From a virus: DNA of 20,370 nt. The notes under the pieces are model-generated. The model did not search any database and was not told where the DNA came from. It saw nothing but the letters and a program-made list of their open reading frames with translations. The DNA is taken from positions 1 to 20,370 of IMG/VR virus record IMGVR_UViG_3300022696_000049; one strand, given 5' to 3'. The translations under genes were made by a program, and so were the position numbers. Within the stretch, counting starts at the first letter, position 1; the number at the start of each line of letters is the position of its first letter. Of the stretch, positions 7,714-18,142 are shown piece by piece.

Positions 7714-8069
7714 CAGAACGTCCTCGACATCCGAAGTCGAACCCAGCGCCGGCGACCGTCCTCGCGTACCGCGTCCTCGAGGTCCCACGGCTCGGAGCTC
7801 GTCGACGGCCAGAGGACCCGGAACTTCCCGGACCCGCCGGCTTCGGTGAGCTCGTTCGTCTGCGAGTTGAACCGCACTCGGAGCTCGCGCTCCGTCGCGT
7901 TGAGCTCGCGCTCCTCCCGGAACCTCTCGCTCCCCGGGTTGACGACAAATTCGGCGTAGGCTCGAGTATGCCGCGCCCACGTATCGACCGGAGCTCCGAG
8001 CGTACTGTTCGCGACCGTCCGGACCTGAATCGTTACGAGCTCGCTGAGCCGCCCAACCTTCGAAGGCAT
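7713..8069 (-). CDS. Head closure / head-tail adaptor protein (Phage_H_T_join-like)
   Basis: A 118-residue protein with an ATG at 8069 overlapping the connector stop. Its layout is that of the SPP1 gp16-like head-tail joining family: an opening strand GRLSELVTIQVRTVA, GAPVDTWARHTRAYAEFVV (the usual 'd..G....tw......waev.p' segment), SERFREERELNATERELRVRFN with the basic/hydrophobic strand after a 'g.e....r' helix, and a final RRRWVRLRMSRTF strand. The protein would close the portal-connector channel after DNA packaging. Gene order is exactly as expected. Confidence 0.78.
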   Translation of the reverse strand: MPSKVGRLSELVTIQVRTVANSTLGAPVDTWARHTRAYAEFVVNPGSERFREERELNATERELRVRFNSQTNELTEAGGSGKFRVLWPSTSSEPWDLEDAVREDGRRRWVRLRMSRTF

Positions 8070-8743
8070 CAGATCATCGCCCCCGGCGCTCGGTGCTTAT
8101 CGAGAATCGCCTGAGCCGAGAGCGGGATCTTCGTCGCGATCGTGCCGAGGACGACAGCCTCGCGGTTCTCAAACCAGTGACCGACGAGGAGCAGGACGGC
8201 CGATCGAGCCCACGGCGGAACCGGCACCGCGGCGGTCCCGTTCGAGTAGCCGACCCAATAGTCGATCTCGACGGCGTCGGCGTTCCGGAGCTGCCGGGTC
8301 GGCCACTCTCGGTTCGCCTTCAGGGTCAGCTTCGGGTAGCCGCCCTCACGGTTCGCGGAAACGATGTAGTGACTCGACCCGAAGACCTCGTGGGTCGACG
8401 CGCCGCGCGGCCAATAACGGACCTCGATCCTCGTCTCGCCCGACGAGAGGAGCGTCGTCGAGAGGAGCGGCGTACCGTAGAGCTCGAGAGCCGGAGCCCG
8501 GGGGAACCGATCGAACGTCTGCCGAACCTGCTGCTTGACGAGCCGTCGCCCCAGGTAATTCTCCGTGTAGTCGCCGGCCGCTTCGACCAGCGCCTCGATG
8601 ACCCCCGTCTCCTCGGTCGAGAGGACGCGCAGATGTGCTCGCGCGTCGGTCGTCTCGACGGCGGCGCGGATCGGGTCGACGAGGACGTCCAGCCGGTTCG
8701 GCATTACCTCCACGCCTCTCGAGATGTAGTCCCACCACGCCAT
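8069..8743 (-). CDS. Head-tail connector protein (HK97 gp6-like)
   Basis: A 224-residue protein. I use the ATG at 8743, which has GGGAGG five bases upstream; an internal ATG at 8704 is also possible but its GGAGG lies only two bases away. The N-terminal helical domain is characteristic: ETTDARAHLRV, ALVEAAGDYTENYLGRRLVKQQVRQTFDRFP, then ELYGTPLLSTTLLSSG, i.e. the 'lkehLrv....l...i.aA...vE.ytgR.l..Qt....d.fp......l..P' pattern of gp6-like connectors that sit below the portal. The C-terminal part (PPWARSAVLLLVGHWFENREAVV) is the usual last helix of this family, preceded by a longer insertion. Confidence 0.82.
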   Translation of the reverse strand: MAWWDYISRGVEVMPNRLDVLVDPIRAAVETTDARAHLRVLSTEETGVIEALVEAAGDYTENYLGRRLVKQQVRQTFDRFPRAPALELYGTPLLSTTLLSSGETRIEVRYWPRGASTHEVFGSSHYIVSANREGGYPKLTLKANREWPTRQLRNADAVEIDYWVGYSNGTAAVPVPPWARSAVLLLVGHWFENREAVVLGTIATKIPLSAQAILDKHRAPGAMI

Positions 8744-8756
8744 CCGGTCCTCCCGG

Positions 8757-9689
8757 TTAGAAGTTGTCGATCACCCAGTCGAGGGTCTGCTTCGCTCCGA
8801 TCGCCCGCTCCTTCGTCAGCTTCGCGTGCTCGATCGCCTTGGTGGCCTCGCCGATCGTACGGCCGTGAAGGTCCCGCTTGTAGGTCAGCTTCGTGAAGAG
8901 CTCGTCATCGCCCCAGCCGTAGAGGACCCGACTCTTGACGAGGTCCGAAACCTCCGGAATCGTCACCTTGATGCCGAGCCCGACGGCGACGCCGACCCAG
9001 TACTCGACGCCCGGGCGCTGGGTCTGATATTCCTCCTCGGTCGCCATGTCGATTCCCCAAATCCCGATCTCCTTCGGCCCTCGCTCCGGCTCGGCGACTC
9101 TCATCGCGCAAGCGTAGGCGAGCATGTAACCGACGGTGTTCGTGAAGTACATGTGGGGGAACGTCTTCCGGATCATCTCGAGCGGATACCGGACCGAGCT
9201 CGGCACCGCGGGGTGAACCTCCTGCATGAAGATCGGCTTGTTGTGATTCGCCGCGAGAAAGCGATGGTAGTCCGCTCGCTGACGCTCCTGAGCCGGCTTC
9301 GGCGTCTCTCCGTCGAGTCGCTCGCAGAGGCGGTCGTAGGGGTGGATCTCGAACCATGCATTCCAGCGGGGGATCCCCGTATACATCCGCGAGAGCGACC
9401 AGACGTCCCAGGACGGATCGTCGAAGGGTGCCGTCTCCCAACCGTGCGCGGAACCGACGATGAGGATCCGCTGCGGAAGGTCCGCGTTCTCGGCCGGCGG
9501 CGGCGATACCTTCGGCTGCCGGGGAGTAGACGCCGAGCTCTCGATCACGACCTCTCGCTCGGCTCCCGGTCGGGGTGCCTCCGAGGAGTCGTCGTCGTGT
9601 AGCTCCAGTCTCGGCCCCGCCGTCGAAGGCTGAGGCGAGTCTCCGTCCATGATCGTGTCCTTACGCGTCTTCTTGTCGTCGTCGCTCAT
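8757..9689 (-). CDS. Rossmann-like phage protein next to capsid gene, putative glycosyltransferase (unproven)
   Basis: A 310-residue protein. I choose the ATG at 9689 with GGGG six bases upstream; a second ATG at 9701 lacks a good ribosome site. Residues 1-70 are acidic, Pro/Ser-rich and probably disordered. From residue 74 a nucleotide-binding-like fold begins with RILIVGSAHGWETAPFDD, then WDVWSLSRMY, WNAWFEIHP (109-117), YFTNTVGYMLAYA, IGIWGIDMA (208-216), QRPGVEYWVG (224-233) and GLGIKVTIP. Phage proteins with this 'WGiDM...QRPg.eYWiG' pattern are usually left hypothetical. The 'ivGsa.s' opening and 'G.DM' strand recall the MAF/DUF115 and GT42-like folds that transfer nonulosonic acids, which would suit the nearby NeuA/NeuB pair. 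The fold is moderately supported; enzymatic function is inference. Confidence 0.5.
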   Translation of the reverse strand: MSDDDKKTRKDTIMDGDSPQPSTAGPRLELHDDDSSEAPRPGAEREVVIESSASTPRQPKVSPPPAENADLPQRILIVGSAHGWETAPFDDPSWDVWSLSRMYTGIPRWNAWFEIHPYDRLCERLDGETPKPAQERQRADYHRFLAANHNKPIFMQEVHPAVPSSVRYPLEMIRKTFPHMYFTNTVGYMLAYACAMRVAEPERGPKEIGIWGIDMATEEEYQTQRPGVEYWVGVAVGLGIKVTIPEVSDLVKSRVLYGWGDDELFTKLTYKRDLHGRTIGEATKAIEHAKLTKERAIGAKQTLDWVIDNF

Positions 9690-9716
9690 GATGTGCCCCA
9701 TCGTAGAGGAGCCCCA

Positions 9717-9763: not shown

Positions 9764-11053
9764 TTAGGTGGTCGCTCGGATACACCGGAACGCCTTCTGA
9801 GCGGGAGTCGTCGACGGCTGTACCGCACGGCCGTCGCACCGCATGTAGCCCTGGAGCGCGAACACGCCCTCATCGGCGTACCGCTCGGTGAGCCGGAGCA
9901 TGAACATGCCCCGGACATCCCGGACCATGTAGTAGTTGAACGCTCCGAAGAGCACCGGCTGAGTCGTCGACCCGGCGGTCGCGAAGCTCCCCAGGTCCTG
10001 ATTGATGTAGACCGGGTAGCCCAGAAGCATGTCCGGAGAGCCGGCGGTCAGGCGCGGCTCCCAGAGGTACATGCCGCGATCGGCAGCGGCCGTGCTCTCT
10101 CGGATCTTCCGGAGAACCTTCCGCGTGTCGTCGTTGAACATCCAGCCCGCTCCCGGCAGACTCCGGTACGCCGGGTCAACCGACGCCTCGAGGTCGTGAA
10201 GGAAGTCGAAGCTGACCGGGATTCCCGAGATCGTGGCCGACCCGGAGGTCGCCGCGATGATTCCCGCCGGGCCGGTCGAGCCGACGGTCATGTCGGTGTT
10301 CATTTTCCGACCGAACCGGATCCGCATCGCGTCCCGGACGATCGATTCGATGCCGATCGCGTCGTCCTGCTCGAGCTCGAAGCTGATCTTGATCGGACCG
10401 CTCCGGTACATGTGTGCCCCGAGCGTCACCGACCCGAACGGTACGCCGGTCGAGTTGGTCGACTTGACCGCCTCGCCGACGAGCTTCGCGCCGTTCCCCG
10501 TATCGTCCGAGCGGGGCCAGGGCAGGTCGCGCCCGGTCGCCGTCTCGAAGACCCGGCCGGCCTGACGGATCCCTCCGTACTGCTTCAGCGCGGTGATGAG
10601 CTCGGCACGGAAGTCCTCGGGAACGAGGTAGCCGCCAGCGGCCGGAGTACCGACGACCTGCTTCGCCAGAGCTCGCGTCTCGGTCAGCGTCTCGCGCTGT
10701 TCGCGCGTCAGCCGAGACATCTCCCCGGTGCCGGTCCGCATCGCGGTCCAGAACGCGTCGCGGTACCGCTCCTCATACTGCTCGGGATCGAGGTCGCGCC
10801 GACCCGCCCGCTCGAGAACATCCTGCGTGATCTCGCGCTCTTCGGCCCGCGACTCGAGCCGAGCGAGATCCTCCTCGATCTTCCGAGCTCGCGCGTCGAG
10901 CCGGTCGCACTCGTCCATCTTGCGATCGAACTCGACCTGCTCCTCGGAAGAGAGGTCGCGACCTTCGGCGGTCGCGTCGTCGTAGAGCTGCCTGGCCTGC
11001 GTGAAGAGCTTCGCCCGCTTCGCCAGGAGCTCATTCGCCTTACCAAGAGACAT
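9764..11053 (-). CDS. Major capsid protein, HK97 fold, with N-terminal delta (scaffolding) domain
   Basis: A 429-residue protein, ATG at 11053 with GGAGGGA at 11063-11057 as a strong ribosome site. Residues 1-75 are a charged coiled coil (RQLYDDATAEGRDLSSEEQV, then ECDRLDARARKIEEDLARLE), the delta domain that acts as an internal scaffold and is removed by the prohead protease. The mature core should begin somewhere between residues 110 and 140. It opens with GGYLVPEDFRAELITALKQY, a hallmark of HK97-type capsids. It continues through the E-loop/spine region (AGRVFETATGRDLPWPRSDD), GWMFNDDTRKVLRKIRES and LLGYPVYINQDL. It closes with the P-domain strand LFGAFNYYMVRDVRGMFMLRLTERYADEG. No separate scaffold gene is present. 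Confidence 0.93.
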   Translation of the reverse strand: MSLGKANELLAKRAKLFTQARQLYDDATAEGRDLSSEEQVEFDRKMDECDRLDARARKIEEDLARLESRAEEREITQDVLERAGRRDLDPEQYEERYRDAFWTAMRTGTGEMSRLTREQRETLTETRALAKQVVGTPAAGGYLVPEDFRAELITALKQYGGIRQAGRVFETATGRDLPWPRSDDTGNGAKLVGEAVKSTNSTGVPFGSVTLGAHMYRSGPIKISFELEQDDAIGIESIVRDAMRIRFGRKMNTDMTVGSTGPAGIIAATSGSATISGIPVSFDFLHDLEASVDPAYRSLPGAGWMFNDDTRKVLRKIRESTAAADRGMYLWEPRLTAGSPDMLLGYPVYINQDLGSFATAGSTTQPVLFGAFNYYMVRDVRGMFMLRLTERYADEGVFALQGYMRCDGRAVQPSTTPAQKAFRCIRATT

Positions 11054-11197: not shown

Positions 11198-12274
11198 TCA
11201 GCCCTCCAGATCGACGAGGTCGACGGCATCGTGTTTCTCTACCGAACGGACGAGCGTCTCGCCGATAATCTGGTCGCGCATTCCGTATCGGAGTCCGTCT
11301 CCGGGCGAGAGCATGACGAGGTGCCGCGGCTCGATCACGGTGCCCGGGTTCAGCGAGCTCGCGTAGTGAAGCGACCGCTCGAGCTTCGCCTTCGCCGCTT
11401 TGACGCCCGGGCTCATGAAGACCTCGGTCGGACCCGTCATCCCGAGCTCCGTCTCTTCGATGGATCGGAGCATCCGGTAGAGTCCTTCACGCTCGACGCT
11501 CCCGAGTTGATCGGTCCCGCGCATCCGCCGATCGAGCGTGACGTGCTTCTCGATGACCGACGCACCCATAGCCCGGGCAATCGCCGGCGCGAGGACGCCG
11601 ACCGAGTGATCGGAAAAGCCGACGGCGACCTCGCCGGTCATCTGCCACGTCTTCGCGTGAAGAGCGGGGATTACCTGCAGGTCCCACGCTTCCGGCGGAC
11701 ATGGATAGATCGACCGGCAGTGCATGACGACGAGCGGCCGGACCGAGCGAAGTATCGCGAGCGCGTCGGCGAGATCCTGCTCGGTGGCCATCCCGGTCGA
11801 GATGATGACCGAAACCTTCGACGGTAGATCCGCGGCGGCGATCGCGTCGAGGAGCGGGATGTTCGTCAGGTCCCGACTCGCGACCTTCAGGAAATTGAGG
11901 TGCGGGATCTCCGCGAGACTGCGACGGACGAGATCCGGGTGGCAAACCGTCAGCCCGAAGTCGAGCCCGACACCGCGCGTGTACTTCGAGAGCTCCGCGA
12001 GCTCGGCCATCGAGAACTCGAGCGCCATCCGGTGCGACCCGTAGTCCGGCCCGAAGCTGTTCCGGCCTTCGTACTTCGCCGCCATCATCGCCCGGGATCC
12101 CTCTTCGGAGAGCTTCCGCTTCGTGAACTTCACGGCGTTCGCGGCAAGGAGCGGGAGCTCCTCCCCCGTCGTCATAGGAGCCGGACGCGGATCCGCCGCC
12201 ATCTGAATGAGCTCCTTCGCGATCCCGAGCGACCCGTTGTGATTCTGCCCGATCTCCGCGATCACATACGCCAT
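11198..12274 (-). CDS. neuB: NeuB-like nonulosonic (sialic) acid synthase
   Basis: A 358-residue enzyme that would condense phosphoenolpyruvate with an N-acetylmannosamine-type sugar to give a nine-carbon acid. Motifs in order: IAEIGQNHNG (5-14), KVASRDLTNIPLL (130-142), VIISTGMAT (156-164), MHCRSIYPCPPE (184-195), VGFSDHSVG (218-226) and GASVIEKHVTLDRRMRGTDQ (237-256). His223 and His244 correspond to the metal ligands of characterised NeuB. Residues about 297-358 form the C-terminal antifreeze-like SAF domain (LERSLHYASSLNPGTVIEPRHLVML, then LSPGDGLRYGM). The first barrel strand reads VKFTKRKL where cellular enzymes usually have VKFQ. It is the last gene of the cassette and overlaps the sulfotransferase by 13 nt. 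Whether the product is neuraminic, legionaminic or pseudaminic acid cannot be told. Confidence 0.9.
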   Translation of the reverse strand: MAYVIAEIGQNHNGSLGIAKELIQMAADPRPAPMTTGEELPLLAANAVKFTKRKLSEEGSRAMMAAKYEGRNSFGPDYGSHRMALEFSMAELAELSKYTRGVGLDFGLTVCHPDLVRRSLAEIPHLNFLKVASRDLTNIPLLDAIAAADLPSKVSVIISTGMATEQDLADALAILRSVRPLVVMHCRSIYPCPPEAWDLQVIPALHAKTWQMTGEVAVGFSDHSVGVLAPAIARAMGASVIEKHVTLDRRMRGTDQLGSVEREGLYRMLRSIEETELGMTGPTEVFMSPGVKAAKAKLERSLHYASSLNPGTVIEPRHLVMLSPGDGLRYGMRDQIIGETLVRSVEKHDAVDLVDLEG

Positions 12275-13086
12275 ACTTCGTCCTCTCGGAGCTCACGGAT
12301 TTGACCGGTCCTCGCCCAGCGCTCGAGGAGCGGCTCCCGGCTCATCCGCGGATAGACGTTCGAGAACGCCCACCGAAACTTCGCCTCAATGAGATCGAGC
12401 GCCCGGAGGGTCCTGCGCGGATCCGCCTCGTGGACGAGATACTCCATGAACCGATCCCTCGAGTAGCCGCCCCGATTGACCTCCGGGAGCGTGATCGGCT
12501 CGCCGAGATGGTCGGCCGTAAACGCCGCGAACTGACTCCTCAGATCCTCTTGCTGCAGGAGGACGAGGTTCGGCGGCACCGTACCGGACTGCGAGGTCAC
12601 CCACCAGAGGTAGGTACCGGCAAATCCCCGGTAGAGGTTCTGCGGGTTCTCGATCATCGTCGACGGGTGGATCTGGAGGTTGTACCAGCGATGGAAGTCG
12701 CAACGCGGATCCTCGAGCCACCCGTGAATCGACGGATACGCGCTGGCCGCGAGATCGTGCTCGTGACGCCCGCCGCGCTGGTAGCGGTCGTGCCAGAAGA
12801 GGTACTGGCTCACCTGCTGAGCGTACGGGTTCCGAACGACGGCGACGACGGCCTTCCAGCTCTTCGCCGGCCGGCCGAGGAGCCGCTCGACGTCGCGTAG
12901 CGGGATGTGCCCGATCGGAAACGGGTTCTCCTTCGTCGGCTTCCGGTCGGCTTCTGGCGAGCCGAGTAGCGCCGGCATCTGTCCCTTCATCCCGGGGACG
13001 TTGTCCCAGAGCGCCTTTTTGACCGCGGTTCCTCCGGTCTTCGGGATATGAATGAAGACGAACCCGTCCTGCGTGTAGCAGCCCAT
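12262..13086 (-). CDS. Sulfotransferase-family protein (PAPS-dependent type)
   Basis: A 274-residue protein, ATG at 13086, overlapping the upstream stop by 4 nt. The 5'-phosphosulfate binding loop is clear at FVFIHIPKTGGTAVKKAL (9-26). The 3'-phosphate motif is clear at VVAVVRNPYAQQVSQYLFW (80-98), in the form RNPY...vS.Y found in carbohydrate sulfotransferases of the Sulfotransfer_2 type. A His in IGHIPL (58-63) lies where these enzymes often carry their acceptor-side base. The C-terminus has LIEAKFRWAFSNV, the usual 'Y..Df..f' helix in altered form. It would transfer sulfate from PAPS to a hydroxyl, probably of a sugar. Pairing with an APS-kinase-like gene directly upstream suggests donor and transferase are encoded together. 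The acceptor is unknown. Confidence 0.85.
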   Translation of the reverse strand: MGCYTQDGFVFIHIPKTGGTAVKKALWDNVPGMKGQMPALLGSPEADRKPTKENPFPIGHIPLRDVERLLGRPAKSWKAVVAVVRNPYAQQVSQYLFWHDRYQRGGRHEHDLAASAYPSIHGWLEDPRCDFHRWYNLQIHPSTMIENPQNLYRGFAGTYLWWVTSQSGTVPPNLVLLQQEDLRSQFAAFTADHLGEPITLPEVNRGGYSRDRFMEYLVHEADPRRTLRALDLIEAKFRWAFSNVYPRMSREPLLERWARTGQIRELREDEVWRM

Positions 13087-13820
13087 CAGTCGCTCCCCTC
13101 CTCCCGCGACGCGCGGATCTTCGTCCCGCTGATCTCCTCGATGACCGCCGGCGGCTTGTGCTCGACGATCCCGTAGCCGACGCCGCGCCCGTACTCGACG
13201 GACAGAACGTTCCGGATGACGCCGACGCGAACCATGTCGCCGAGGTGAGCGTACTCGTCTCGGATCTCCCTCGCGATCTCTCCCGCGTCTCGCTCCTCCG
13301 TCGTATCGCGGACCAAGACCTGAACCGGGTCGCCGCGCTGGAGCGCCTTCGCGAAGAGCCAGCGGTGCCCATCGTGAAACGTCTGGTACCTCCCGATGAA
13401 CGTAGCGCGAGGACGCTTGTAGTGCTCGTGAACGAGCCGCCGCACTTCCGCGAGGTCCGGGTCGATCGCGTCCGGGTCCTCCGGCTCTTCGTAGCCCTCA
13501 TACCAGTACTCGCGCCGGACGCCGTAATGCTTCTGCATGTAGAGTTCGAGCGCGTTCACCTTCCGCTTGAGCTCGTCGCGCTGATCCGCGAACGGCTGCT
13601 GAAGCGATACGGCGACCCTGTGCCCGAGCCCATGAAGGTATAGCGCGATCGCGTGAGCACGCCCGACGTTGACCATCCGGCCTGCGCGGTCATACCCAGG
13701 GTTCGACAGCGCCCGGAGCTCGTCCCCGTCGACCACGAAGTCGACGACGTCCGCCTCCTGTAGCTTCCGCGCCAGGGTCGTCTTCCCGCAGCCGGCCTGT
13801 CCCGTCAGCATGATGATCAT
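13086..13820 (-). CDS. APS-kinase-like domain fused to HxGH nucleotidyltransferase domain
   Basis: A 244-residue two-domain protein. Residues 1-110 are a P-loop kinase of adenylylsulfate-kinase (CysC) type: LTGQAGCGKTTLARKL (5-20), DGDELRALSNPGYDRAGRM (31-49), and NVGRAHAIALYLHGLGHRV (51-69) followed by VSLQQPFADQRDELK (71-85), equivalent to the CysC 'iSPy...R' segment. Residues 137-244 are a small adenylyl/cytidylyltransferase: TFIGRYQTFHDGHRWLF (140-156) with HDGH as the HxGH motif and ISGTKIRAS (230-238) as the ISsTxIR motif. CysC makes PAPS from APS. The transferase half resembles NMN or cytidylyl transferases and is far shorter than ATP sulfurylase. The sulfotransferase next door favours a PAPS role; an NAD-salvage role (NadR-like, domains swapped) is the main alternative. 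Confidence 0.8.
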   Translation of the reverse strand: MIIMLTGQAGCGKTTLARKLQEADVVDFVVDGDELRALSNPGYDRAGRMVNVGRAHAIALYLHGLGHRVAVSLQQPFADQRDELKRKVNALELYMQKHYGVRREYWYEGYEEPEDPDAIDPDLAEVRRLVHEHYKRPRATFIGRYQTFHDGHRWLFAKALQRGDPVQVLVRDTTEERDAGEIAREIRDEYAHLGDMVRVGVIRNVLSVEYGRGVGYGIVEHKPPAVIEEISGTKIRASREEGSD

Positions 13821-14113
13821 CGGCCGGCCTCCGTCTTGGCCGCGAGACTCCTAAACGCCTGATCCTGAATCGCCGCGAGGAGTCCGCCGAGCTCGATCGA
13901 CGCCTCGTGTTCGGTCCCCTCGGTTACGCCCTGGATCCAGTCCGAGAGCATTACGCCGACGCCGGCGACGAGCTCCGACCCGGTCGCCCTGACGACCGTA
14001 TGCACCGTGAATCCTCCTTCCTCTTCGTTCTCCTCGACCTTGAGCCGAACGATCTCCTTGGCGTCGATCGCCTCGAAACCGCCGGCCCCGGGTCCAATTG
14101 CTTCCGTCGTCAT
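13817..14113 (-). CDS. Unrecognised 98-residue acidic protein in the modification cassette
   Basis: ATG at 14113 with AGGGG about six bases upstream. The start overlaps the stop of the DUF2061 gene (ATGA) and the TGA at 13817 overlaps the next start in the same way, so it is translated as part of the cassette. The frame is open further upstream but only as out-of-phase reading of the membrane gene. The protein is acidic, with EIVRLKVEENEEEGGFTVHT as a likely strand pair and GVGVMLSDWIQGVTEG and LGGLLAAIQDQAFRSLAAK as amphipathic helices. No transmembrane segment, Cys pair or catalytic motif is visible. I do not recognise a family; a small accessory or regulatory partner is possible. Confidence 0.65.
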   Translation of the reverse strand: MTTEAIGPGAGGFEAIDAKEIVRLKVEENEEEGGFTVHTVVRATGSELVAGVGVMLSDWIQGVTEGTEHEASIELGGLLAAIQDQAFRSLAAKTEAGR

Positions 14114-14358
14114 CGTGCCCCCTGCTTTTGAGAGTCGTCGGTCGCGGGTCGGTCGAGCCCGACTCTCTTCAAGCTCGATTCCCAAAGGTGCTCGAACGCC
14201 CAGTATAGACCGACCTTCATCACGAAGTCGCCGGCCGAGATCGCGAGCGCGAGCCGTAGATCCCATGTGACGCCGAACGCGATCAGCCCGGTGACGAGCA
14301 TCGCAAGGACGCGGTACGTCACGGCCTTGAACAAGAACGTCATTGCGCGGTCGTTCAT
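14110..14358 (-). CDS. DUF2061 family small membrane protein
   Basis: An 82-residue protein, ATG at 14358, with 4-nt overlaps at both ends. It has two hydrophobic helices (residues about 17-31 and 35-53) in the DUF2061 pattern: FKAVTYRVLAMLVTGLIAFG, then LRLALAISAGDFVMKVGLYWAFEHLW, matching the family 'KaitwRilas..t...a....g....A..i...e...K...Yy.hErlW'. The C-terminal 20 residues are polar and probably cytoplasmic. DUF2061 has no proven function. From memory it is often found with adenylylsulfate kinase genes, and here an APS-kinase-like gene lies one gene downstream. A membrane role connected to sulfate or its activated form is a reasonable guess only. Confidence 0.8.
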   Translation of the reverse strand: MNDRAMTFLFKAVTYRVLAMLVTGLIAFGVTWDLRLALAISAGDFVMKVGLYWAFEHLWESSLKRVGLDRPATDDSQKQGAR

Positions 14359-14657
14359 CCGAAAAACTCCGAGTCATGACACGCCCGGTCGTCGATGTAG
14401 CGATGAGCGAACGGCTTCGGATGAAGCTCGTGGAACCGTACCTGCCAGCGAGCGAGCTGGCGTCGGGTCATCTGGAGGATCTCGGCGCGGACGGCGAGGA
14501 GCTCCGACTGACCGCGAGCCGTAGCGATGATGATGTGATGCCCGCGAGCGTAGAGCTCGTTCACGCGCTCGATCCGGTCCTCGATCGGTTCGGCGTTGAC
14601 GTAGTCCTGTCCCTCGGTTCGGCAGAGCGTACCGTCGAGATCGAAGCAGAACCTCAT
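14355..14657 (-). CDS. Minimal HAD-superfamily phosphatase
   Basis: A 100-residue capless HAD protein, ATG at 14657 overlapping the neuA-like stop (ATGA). Motif I is FCFDLDGTLC (3-12) with Asp6 as predicted nucleophile and Asp8 as acid/base. Motif II is the threonine of IIIATARGQ (42-50), motif III is probably Lys81, and motif IV is YIDDRA (87-92). All catalytic elements are therefore present despite the small size. Proteins of this type are often annotated as capsule-biosynthesis phosphatases. Placement next to a CMP-sugar synthetase suggests it removes phosphate from a sugar-phosphate intermediate, but it could equally act on a nucleotide such as the PAP left by sulfotransfer. Confidence 0.8.
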   Translation of the reverse strand: MRFCFDLDGTLCRTEGQDYVNAEPIEDRIERVNELYARGHHIIIATARGQSELLAVRAEILQMTRRQLARWQVRFHELHPKPFAHRYIDDRACHDSEFFG

Positions 14658-15340
14658 GGGCGCAGCCCCCAGAGCCGCTGGTGAATCGGCCAGAGCATAC
14701 GAGCGGCTCGGAGGTCTTCATGGTCGTCGACGTCGAGCGCCCGGAGTGGATGGACTTCGACGCAATTGACGGGAGCCTCCCAGAAGCCGCGCCGGATGAA
14801 CCGCTCGAGCGACGCCACGTAGACGGTCCCGTTCACGTAGAGGTCAGGGTCGCGGATCGCCTGACGCGGGTTCTTCGCGTTCTCTCGAAAGCCGACGCCG
14901 CCGCCGGGGAGCGCCTCAAGTACCTGATGCTCTCGAAACGACGCGCGGCTCGCGCCGACGACCGTCGTACCAGTGTCAGCGTAGAGCTGTATGGCCCGCG
15001 CGATGTCGTCGTCCGATCGGAGCGGCTGAGTGACGAAGAGCCGGACGATCGTGTCGAACGGAGCGAAGACGTGCGGGAACAGCGCGATCGCGTCCCGGGT
15101 CTTCGCCTCCGGGAGCTCGTCGTCTCCGACCTCTCGGTCGATAAGCATCGTCTCGTGCCCGAGCTCGCGAGCGTGCTCCTCGTGCTCCTCGGCGTCCGTA
15201 ACGAGGACGACGTGATCGCACGTCCGCTTCCCCTGCTTGAGCGCAATCTCGATCAGGCTCTCGTAACCGAGCCGCTGCATGTTCTTCCCGGGCAGACCTT
15301 TCGATCCGCGCCGGGTCGGTACTACCGCGATTGTCTTCAC
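14654..15340 (-). CDS. neuA: CMP-nonulosonate (sialate-type) cytidylyltransferase
   Basis: A 228-residue enzyme using GTG at 15340 behind GGAGGGG. It would activate a nine-carbon acid sugar with CTP to give the CMP-sugar used by glycosyltransferases. The N-terminal mononucleotide-binding motif VVPTRRGSKGLPGKN (6-20) is close to the canonical 'ipARgGSKgiPgKN'. Further signatures are FVTQPLRSDDDI (102-113), DLYVNGTVYVA (166-176) and ALDVDDHEDL (201-210), the last with the metal-binding Asp pair. Length is normal for NeuA/LegF/PseF. It is the first gene of the cassette, 26 bp after the protease gene. Sequence does not separate neuraminate, legionaminate or pseudaminate specificity, and KDO transferase (KdsB) is less likely given NeuB nearby. 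Confidence 0.88.
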   Translation of the reverse strand: MKTIAVVPTRRGSKGLPGKNMQRLGYESLIEIALKQGKRTCDHVVLVTDAEEHEEHARELGHETMLIDREVGDDELPEAKTRDAIALFPHVFAPFDTIVRLFVTQPLRSDDDIARAIQLYADTGTTVVGASRASFREHQVLEALPGGGVGFRENAKNPRQAIRDPDLYVNGTVYVASLERFIRRGFWEAPVNCVEVHPLRALDVDDHEDLRAARMLWPIHQRLWGLRP

Positions 15341-16033: not shown

Positions 16034-18142
16034 CTACGCGGGTCGAATGACGCAGTCACAGCCCTTGTGAAACGGCGGGTGACCGACTCGTTTCTTGAAC
16101 TTCAGCGGGAGCGCCTTCCCGGGCGCGGCGAGCTCGTCGCCGGCGTTGAAGAACGACCCCGCTATGTCGACGGTCCTCCCGTCGATGGCTCGGCAGTAGG
16201 GGCAGGAGTCGCCGACCGTCCGGGCGACCATCGCCGCGACGCCCATCGCTCCCCACGCCCACTTCGAGATCCCCTGATTCAGCTCGTTGATATGACGCTC
16301 GGCGATCCGGTCGGCGCGAGTCGTCTCGACACCTTCGCCCTTCCAGCGCTCGAGTACCTCGGAGACGCGATCCTCCGGCTCCCCGCGGTCGATTTTCGCC
16401 TCGATCTGCTTTCGGCCGCTCGCGGCGATTCCGGCGATCGCCCTCTCCGTGTATTCGCGGATCCAGCGGGCGACGTCGTCGTCCTCCGGCTCGACTCCCG
16501 GAGCGATCTCGACCGCCTCGCGTACCGCCGGCCCGAAGACCGCCATCCCGTAGGAGCGGAAACCCGGGCCGAGGACGGTGTCCGCGAAGTCCGGGAACCG
16601 CTCGAAGTAATACCGGCCGAGCTCCTGACGGAACGCGTCGCGATCAATGACCTCTCCCTCGAGCCGCTTCGCGACGAGCTTGCCGACCTCTCGTAGCTCG
16701 CCGCGCACGAGCCGCTCCGCTCGGTCCTGGAAGTCTGGGAGGAACGCGTCGCGCAGATCGAGTCGCTCCTCGAAGGACCGCCGCTCGACCGCGGACCGAA
16801 CGCGGATCCCCGGAGCGCCACCGCCCGCTTCGTCGTCTCCCCCGGGCGGCGTAGGATCGGCGTCGTCGCCGCCGCTCATCGTGTTCCGAAGCACATCGGC
16901 TACCATCGAGAGCGGGATGTACTGCTGCTGAACGAACGGCTCGTCACCGCCGGCGATCGGGTTCTCTCCCTCCTCTCCGCGGATCTCGTTCGGCGTGATC
17001 GAGGCGGCGTTGAACCGGGCCTGGTAGTAGGCGGTCCGCGCCGCAACGTCGCCGCGTAGGAGCTCGCGCAGGTCGAACTCGACGGAGAGCCGAGCCCCGA
17101 TCTCGTCCGGCCGGAAGAGCTGCGAAAGGATCGACTGCTTCCAGCGCGTCAGCCACGGGAGGAGCGTGTCCTGAAAATACTCGAGGTTCTGCGCGTCGAT
17201 GTTCGCCCACTTCGCGTCGGCCATATCGCCGATCTTATGCGGGGGAATGTTGAACCATCGAGCGATCTCGCGGACCGTGAACTTCCGGCTCTCGATGAAC
17301 TGCGTATCCTCGGCGTTCATCGTGATCGGGTTGAACTTCATGCCCTCCTCGAGTACCGCGACCCGGTGCGCGTTCGAGCTTCCGCCGTAGAGCATTTCCC
17401 AGCGCCGGCGTAGCGCGTCCTTCGCTTCCGGGGAGAGCGCGTTAGGGTGCTCGAGCGTACCGCCCGGCGTCCCTCCGTTCGAGAAGAACCGCGAGCCGTA
17501 GTCCTCCTGACCGAGCGCCGCGCCGATCGTTTCCCTCGCGTACTTGATGACCGACCAGCCGCGTAGCGCGTCGCCGCCGACTCCCTTGACGCGCAGGACG
17601 CGCTCCCAGGAGAGAACGGTGCCTTTCTCGCCCGACGCGGTGGGGAGCAGGATCACGGCCGGAACCTTCGAGCCGCGAGGACCGACCGAGAGGAGCTCGA
17701 TCTCGTACATATCCGGGTCGAGGAGATGAAGCGACTCGAGCTCGCCGAGCCGGCCCCGGGTCCGCTGAACGTCCGCGACCATGTTACCCCGGAGGAGGAG
17801 GTGCGTCATCGCGTCCTCCTTGAAGCTCGCCGCGATCACGCCCGGAGCCGCCTGCACGTTGAGCAGGTACCCGAGCGGGTGCTCCGTCACCGGGTCCTTG
17901 GTCCGGCCGTCGGCCCTGTACTGAACGATCCTGACCGGGAGAGAGCCCACGCTCCCAGCAATCGTATTGACGGCCGCGTAGACCGCGCTGACCTGCTTCG
18001 CCGTCGTCGCGTTGACGATCGCCCCGGCCGCAGAGCGGGATCCCCCGCCGAGCACCTCGAGGATCGAGTATCCGTCCGAGAGTGGAACGTTTGGGTTCTC
18101 GAGCGTGACGCCCGCTCGCCTATCGGTCAGAAAAGAGATCAC
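16034..18142 (-). CDS. Portal protein fused to C-terminal MuF-like domain
   Basis: A 702-residue protein with a GTG start at 18142 overlapping the membrane-protein stop (GTGA). Residues 1-415 are an HK97-type portal: QVSAVYAAVNTIAGSVGSLP (50-69), EHPLGYLLN (87-95), EDAMTHLLLRGNMVADVQR (109-127) and REIARWFNIPPHKIGD (291-306), which form the DNA-entry dodecamer at one capsid vertex. A Gly/Asp/Pro linker (423-446) leads to about 255 more residues. This part ends with CPYC...DGRTVDIAG and GHPPFHKGCDCVIRP (687-701), the Phage_Mu_F signature with His and Cys residues. MuF proteins usually come from a separate gene after portal and are minor head proteins thought to be ejected or to help assembly. 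The single long frame shows no stop at the join. Confidence 0.9.
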   Translation of the reverse strand: MISFLTDRRAGVTLENPNVPLSDGYSILEVLGGGSRSAAGAIVNATTAKQVSAVYAAVNTIAGSVGSLPVRIVQYRADGRTKDPVTEHPLGYLLNVQAAPGVIAASFKEDAMTHLLLRGNMVADVQRTRGRLGELESLHLLDPDMYEIELLSVGPRGSKVPAVILLPTASGEKGTVLSWERVLRVKGVGGDALRGWSVIKYARETIGAALGQEDYGSRFFSNGGTPGGTLEHPNALSPEAKDALRRRWEMLYGGSSNAHRVAVLEEGMKFNPITMNAEDTQFIESRKFTVREIARWFNIPPHKIGDMADAKWANIDAQNLEYFQDTLLPWLTRWKQSILSQLFRPDEIGARLSVEFDLRELLRGDVAARTAYYQARFNAASITPNEIRGEEGENPIAGGDEPFVQQQYIPLSMVADVLRNTMSGGDDADPTPPGGDDEAGGGAPGIRVRSAVERRSFEERLDLRDAFLPDFQDRAERLVRGELREVGKLVAKRLEGEVIDRDAFRQELGRYYFERFPDFADTVLGPGFRSYGMAVFGPAVREAVEIAPGVEPEDDDVARWIREYTERAIAGIAASGRKQIEAKIDRGEPEDRVSEVLERWKGEGVETTRADRIAERHINELNQGISKWAWGAMGVAAMVARTVGDSCPYCRAIDGRTVDIAGSFFNAGDELAAPGKALPLKFKKRVGHPPFHKGCDCVIRPA

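Follow-up and report, generated by a model that had tools for sequence, protein, structure and literature searches.

A capsid-adjacent phage protein family of the GT42/Maf structural class is linked to nonulosonate synthesis

Here, we identify a protein of predicted GT42/Maf-like fold, encoded directly after the major capsid gene in the IMG/VR virus record IMGVR_UViG_3300022696_000049, as a member of a phage protein family that is functionally linked to nonulosonate (NulO) synthesis beside the capsid. The stretch analyzed, referred to as the window, comprises all 20,370 nucleotides of this 20.4-kb record, which is probably a fragment. We suggest, with somewhat more confidence than doubt, that in phages encoding NeuB and NeuA the family protein is a soluble Maf/GT42-class glycosyltransferase that attaches a nonulosonate from a cytidine monophosphate (CMP)-sugar to a virion protein. 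An earlier note on this DNA had proposed the gene as the missing nonulosonate transferase of a CMP-sugar cassette. Of this proposal, the GT42/Maf-like fold and the nonulosonate link beside the capsid stand, while the GT42 histidine is absent and transfer to the capsid is our best inference.

Several lines of evidence support a GT42/Maf-like fold of the window protein. First, its AlphaFold model, which has a predicted local distance difference test (pLDDT) score >90 in the core and ends in a long C-terminal helix, matched Maf 5mu5 (Z 10.6 over 153 residues, 2.8 A), CstII (Z 10.5) and CstI (Z 10.4) best when compared with the PDB by VIA-align, and CstII was its only Foldseek match in the PDB at E<0.001. 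Second, in a model of a NeuA-coupled family member from another phage locus (L086), CstII was again the only Foldseek PDB match at E<0.001; the Rossmann domain of this model matched CstII (Z 10.5), CstI (10.4) and a Pasteurella sialyltransferase (10.2), and its long C-terminal helices matched unrelated helical chains at similar or slightly higher Z. Third, the nine leading matches of the family profile among PDB sequences were all GT42 enzymes (best E 5e-4; 0.0025 in another search), and hhalign aligned the family with CstII at P about 1e-6, using a CstII query that agreed with 1ro7 except at F/Y91, printed as a variant. Thus, the resemblance to MAF and GT42 enzymes that the earlier note had seen at the level of pattern, and for which it had named a fold comparison as the check, holds in two family members.

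Matches to curated families were much fainter. Pfam CST-I (PF06002) matched 3 of the 99 aligned family members (best E 0.002, below the gathering score) and Maf_flag10/MptE-like PF01973 matched three weakly (best E 0.062, below the cut-off); the window protein itself matched neither PF06002 at E<=0.1 nor PF01973. Used as a single query against Pfam, PHROGs, NCBIfam and the PDB, it gave nothing useful. A CstII fragment found no match in the phage collection, and a PF06002 scan for classic GT42 genes detected none in NulO phages, but none in any control genome either.

The window protein belongs to a large family. Its sole match in the annotated phage collection is a 36% identical protein of Microcystis phage Mvi-Yong1342-1 (PP496355.1, 34781-35584). 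That protein is labelled "type 11 methyltransferase," a label that we reject because the fold and profile evidence indicate otherwise. An iterated IMG/VR search recovered 32 relatives at first and, subsequently, 506 stretches that encode relatives. From these, 80 were retained, and the family alignment comprises 99 members. A genome_contigs search yielded one locus with the same length and match coordinates as an IMG/VR locus, and a plasmid search with the Microcystis phage homologue yielded nothing useful. In a PHROGs scan of the 99 members, any one family was matched by at most two of them, and no matched family has a description. Conserved positions are G83, W101, F117, H120, P173, A197, G216, D218, E224, Y225, Q228, Y261 and G302, among which G216 (99%), E224 (97%), H120 (94%), D218 (88%) and Q228 (87%) stand out. 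The open reading frame (ORF) is open throughout and encodes 314 aa; an in-frame ATG at 9689, four codons past the first, is an equally possible start and gives 310 aa. As the earlier note had claimed, this is a real ORF directly after the capsid gene and carries an ivGSa-type opening (ILIVGSA, residues 79-85), WGIDM (215-219) and QRPGVEYWVG (228-237). Conservation of their columns in 99 relatives indicates that these blocks are not a chance pattern. As the note had it, the N-terminal ~75 residues are acidic, with disorder predicted for them (pLDDT about 50); however, an acidic N-terminus is no general trait among the relatives, and we have therefore dropped the suggested role of this segment in docking onto the capsid.

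Two family copies occur in 15 of 115 loci, some of them paired with NeuA; two-copy phages include L011, L012, L013, L021, L022, L027, L055, L057, L060, L083, L090 and L106. In L083 and L106, the copies on the NeuA side cluster together in the family tree and lack the EYxxQRP motif.

The link to nonulosonate synthesis is recurrent. Among 49 family records searched over their whole length, the window included, 17 encode NeuB, and each of these is among the 20 that encode a CMP-sugar synthetase; in a second set of 50 shorter family records, four encode NeuB. When the window is left out and only family records >=17 kb are counted, NeuB is present in 15 of 43, all of which also encode NeuA, versus 0 of 38 IMG/VR records of like size drawn at random (Fisher p = 2e-5), a strong result for the co-occurrence that the earlier note had named as a check. 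NeuB is likewise found in 0 of 38 control records selected by TerL; near-relatives and short records abound in this set, which makes the random records the preferable control. In the reverse direction, the family is present in 7 of 24 NeuB-selected records, in one of them weakly. NeuA and NeuB lie on the same strand as the family gene in nearly all cases, mostly at a distance of 0-6.6 kb, and in L090, L086, L055 and L083 the NeuA and family genes are directly adjacent or overlap. On the family tree, a quick build with some long branches, the NeuA/NeuB label changes 20 times, with at least nine changes forced by well-supported branches; the pairing with NeuA/NeuB therefore recurs.

The position beside the capsid gene is similarly recurrent. 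A capsid protein of the window type lies within 1.5 kb of the family gene in 38 of the 42 loci in which it was recognized. L008 has the same arrangement as the window, i.e., protease, NeuB, 2-epimerase (PF02350), NeuA, capsid, family gene and connector. Other orders are capsid, family gene, NeuA, other genes, NeuB and connector in L045 and L080, and a block of family gene, NeuA, NAD-epimerase and NeuB, with a second family gene after the capsid, in L055 and L083. In L090 and L086, the family gene that NeuA abuts lies after the capsid. Genes in these loci were called by a simple longest-ORF procedure with homology support, by which small genes are uncertain. In the window, the capsid gene separates the NeuB- and NeuA-like genes from the family ORF. 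The gene positions agree with the earlier note, by whose proposal, if correct, the capsid gene would be bracketed by the donor pathway and the transferase; the family ORF would be that transferase.

The cassette of the window encodes NeuB- and NeuA-like proteins and none of its proteins scanned matched a glycosyltransferase family, in line with the earlier note's description of a CMP-sugar cassette devoid of a recognized glycosyltransferase; PF00535 had no match anywhere in the window. This absence holds for the window, and because the window is a fragment, a transferase may be encoded elsewhere in the genome. Across NeuB-positive records, GT2, the only glycosyltransferase family scanned there, was above the cut-off in 0 of 28 records with the family versus 9 of 14 without it. 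After by-eye grouping of apparent near-copies, the comparison is 0 of 28 versus 4 of 8 (p about 0.001). This contrast fits with a transferase role of the family. A candidate link of the family to sugar-nucleotide pathways in general was rejected, as the nucleoside diphosphate (NDP)-sugar epimerase PF01370 tracks NeuB only: it is present in 11-12 of 15 NeuB-positive family records, 1 of 28 NeuB-negative family records and 2 of 38 random records.

Altogether, these findings are consistent with a model in which, in phages encoding NeuB and NeuA, the family protein would take a nonulosonic (sialic-acid-like) sugar from CMP and transfer it to a protein of the virion. The likeliest acceptor would be either the major capsid protein or a small head protein from a neighboring gene. 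Transfer would take place late in infection, during head building. In CstII and CstI, His188 and His202, respectively, are the catalytic base (PMC4202792). The family conserves E224, Y225 and Q228, but no histidine, at the place where the GT42 histidine is expected, together with H120 of the FExH motif. With the GT42 histidine missing, another residue would have to serve as the base, and conserved H120, E224 or D218 may do so. In phages without NeuA and NeuB, either a host CMP-sugar would be used or the NulO version would be a specialization of a broader activity. More tentatively, and at slightly less than even confidence, we suggest that a large unnamed GT42/Maf-like phage family decorates heads with NeuB/NeuA-made nonulosonic sugars, which in some phages are probably modified further, as epimerase, methyltransferase, HisH/HisF-type and sulfotransferase-like genes suggest.

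Several observations weigh against this model. First, histidine is absent from the D218-K256 segment of the window protein, and CstII His188 thus has no counterpart. The mapping to CstII is uncertain past the GxD strand, where hhalign and a hand alignment differ on the His188 counterpart, and neither places a histidine there. Because this histidine is missing and the cut-offs of Pfam CST-I and MptE/Maf are not reached, we assign the family only to the GT42/Maf structural class and file it as neither GT42 nor Maf. Second, the fold is shared with other proteins: archaeal 6-hydroxymethylpterin diphosphokinase (HPPK; 8sd5, Z 9.5), thiamin pyrophosphokinase (TPK; 3lm8, Z 9.3) and SteA (Z 8.7) follow as the next VIA-align matches of the window model, the first two at a Z nearly equal to that of the leading ones. 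Third, about 60% of the long family records lack NeuA and NeuB, and neither was found in the complete, circular Microcystis phage PP496355.1. The earlier note had counted broad occurrence in phages lacking sugar-activation genes against its own proposal, and such occurrence is, in part, what we find. Fourth, active-site residues are equally conserved in members with and without NeuA/NeuB, and NulO is therefore not obviously the ancestral donor. Finally, family records without NeuB have no NDP-sugar epimerase above background.

The last three of these observations also favor the alternative that a transferase of the same class uses a host CMP-sugar, e.g., CMP-3-deoxy-D-manno-octulosonate (CMP-Kdo), or another host-supplied sugar as its general donor, with NulO cassettes as an optional upgrade or as cargo that settles in the slot between capsid and connector. 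However, pure hitch-hiking leaves unexplained why NeuA is directly next to the family gene at sites that differ between genomes (L090/L086 versus L055/L083) and why GT2 genes are absent from NulO phages with the family. We consider this alternative unlikely but worth taking seriously. It is distinctly improbable that the target of the enzyme is not the virion but a host surface glycan (capsule or lipooligosaccharide [LOS]), with an effect on serotype or superinfection. GT42 enzymes do sialylate LOS, and nonulosonate enzymes of Acinetobacter prophages change the host capsule (PMC12053666); however, the family gene lies among head genes between capsid and connector, outside any lysogeny or moron block, and by inspection the AlphaFold model has no membrane-like segment. 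We give slightly less credence still to the idea that the protein is of the HPPK/TPK type, or another nucleotide-binding protein, with an indirect link to NulO. The Z scores of these enzymes and the weak MptE-like Pfam matches agree with such a protein, whereas sequence profiles against the PDB pick only GT42 among the enzymes of this fold, with no match to HPPK or TPK, and the gene context is one of sugar activation. That the family is a noncatalytic head-associated protein reusing a transferase fold, as its recurrent capsid-side position, long C-terminal helix and loss of the GT42 histidine could indicate, is very improbable given the strong conservation of the polar pocket-type residues H120, D218, E224 and Q228 and the loci with two copies, some paired with NeuA.

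If the transferase model is correct, phages produce a sialic-acid-like coat and wear it themselves. Such a coat would be a novel type of virion modification and a viral counterpart of flagellin sialylation, relevant to immune recognition, adsorption, mucus binding and persistence. The model would also provide a function for a family that occurs in hundreds of phage contigs and that neither Pfam nor PHROGs names, and phage NeuA/NeuB genes would be a virion-decoration system instead of "auxiliary metabolism."

Table 1. Features of the window around the family ORF
Feature	Coordinates	Strand	Basis and remarks
GT42/Maf-like protein	8757..9701	-	Residues 1-75 disordered, acidic; 76-256 Rossmann-type sialyltransferase-like domain; 267-313 long C-terminal helix
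Motifs of GT42/Maf-like protein	FExH 117-120; GxD 216-218; EYxxQRP 224-230; GA 302-303 (residues)		All conserved; GA lies in the C-terminal helix
HK97-type major capsid protein	9764..11053	-	PF05065, phrog_10; gene end 65 bp upstream of family ORF
Head-tail connector	8069..8743	-	PF05135, phrog_40/442; directly downstream of family ORF
NeuB-type nonulosonate synthase	11198..12274	-	PF03102; TIGR03569 and TIGR03586 scores under equivalog cut-offs
CMP-sugar synthetase, NeuA/PseF/KdsB-like	14654..15340	-	PF02348 (CTP_transf_3)
HAD phosphatase-like protein	14355..14657	-	phrog_1238; 4-nt overlap with NeuA gene; homologue adjoins NeuB in L023
Sulfotransferase-like protein	12262..13086	-	Weak PF03567 (E 0.15), phrog_3347 (E 0.003), IPKTGGT motif; homologues in L040, L070
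P-loop APS-kinase-like domain + nucleotidyltransferase-like domain	13086..13820	-	phrog_10255

The remaining genes of the cassettes (Table 1) bear on the nature of the sugar. In the NulO cassette of the window, the sulfotransferase-like gene adjoins the gene for the fusion of adenosine 5'-phosphosulfate (APS)-kinase-like and nucleotidyltransferase-like domains, and these neighbors suggest that the sugar of this cassette may be sulfated. Sulfotransferase homologues occur near the family gene at two other loci, directly upstream of it in L040. In two distant phages, those of the window and L023 (12226-12543), NeuB/NeuA occur together with an HAD phosphatase-like gene; such a gene would be expected if synthesis yields the nonulosonate as a 9-phosphate. 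The NeuA/NeuB clusters of L105, L077 and L106 encode a protein of ~375 aa that carries a CxxCxxP..T.PD.. motif at its N-terminus, is amidotransferase-like by eye and has no Pfam match, and that of L106 also encodes a HisH-like GATase and a HisF-like His_biosynth protein; together, such genes could make an acetamidino-type nonulosonate. In three genomes (G032:C1:21126-21638, G036:C1:25321-25770 and G037:C1:30053-30421), the CMP-sugar synthetase domain fills only part of an open frame of 677-691 residues and may be fused to another large domain. Within the sugar cassette, the window also encodes a small DUF2061 membrane protein (14110-14358); at other loci, the surroundings of the family gene yielded no homologue of it. 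The 702-aa portal-like ORF of the window (16034-18142) has a C-terminal extension that contains a CPYCRAxDG motif and by eye resembles a Mu gpF-type domain.

Our literature search, which excluded preprints and most subscription papers, found no paper describing nonulosonates on phage capsids. The capsid proteins of mycobacteriophages Che8 and Rita are covalently glycosylated (Freeman et al. 2023, cited in PMC11256854), with putative glycosyltransferases in a close relative. In Maravista, the phage that PMC11256854 describes, the glycosyltransferases are encoded close to the genome's 3' end, and the passages considered make no mention of a nonulosonate pathway; these phages are likened to the window by description. 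EpaA and EpaB, the phage-encoded enzymes of Acinetobacter prophages considered above, also act on nonulosonic acids, although on the host capsule, with no action on the virion described (PMC12053666). Among proteins of similar fold, 8sd5 and 3lm8 share the Rossmann-type core with the window protein but differ in gene context. CstII and CstI (PF06002) share the fold and are the best sequence-profile matches, and the G-loop, the small-residue run before GID and the GxD strand align; they differ from the phage family in the catalytic histidine, in place of which the family conserves FExH and EYxxQRP. Maf proteins attach nonulosonates to Ser/Thr of flagellin, and their central domain is flanked by an N-terminal Rossmann-like and a C-terminal helical-bundle domain (PMC11339370). 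Only the central Maf_flag10/PF01973 domain, the best structural match of the window model, is common to both: the window protein has neither flanking domain, its N-terminus being disordered in the model and its C-terminal part a single helix, and the phage family sits among head genes. Nevertheless, both co-occur in genomes with NeuB/NeuA-type genes, and the capsid would be a self-assembling target comparable to flagellin.
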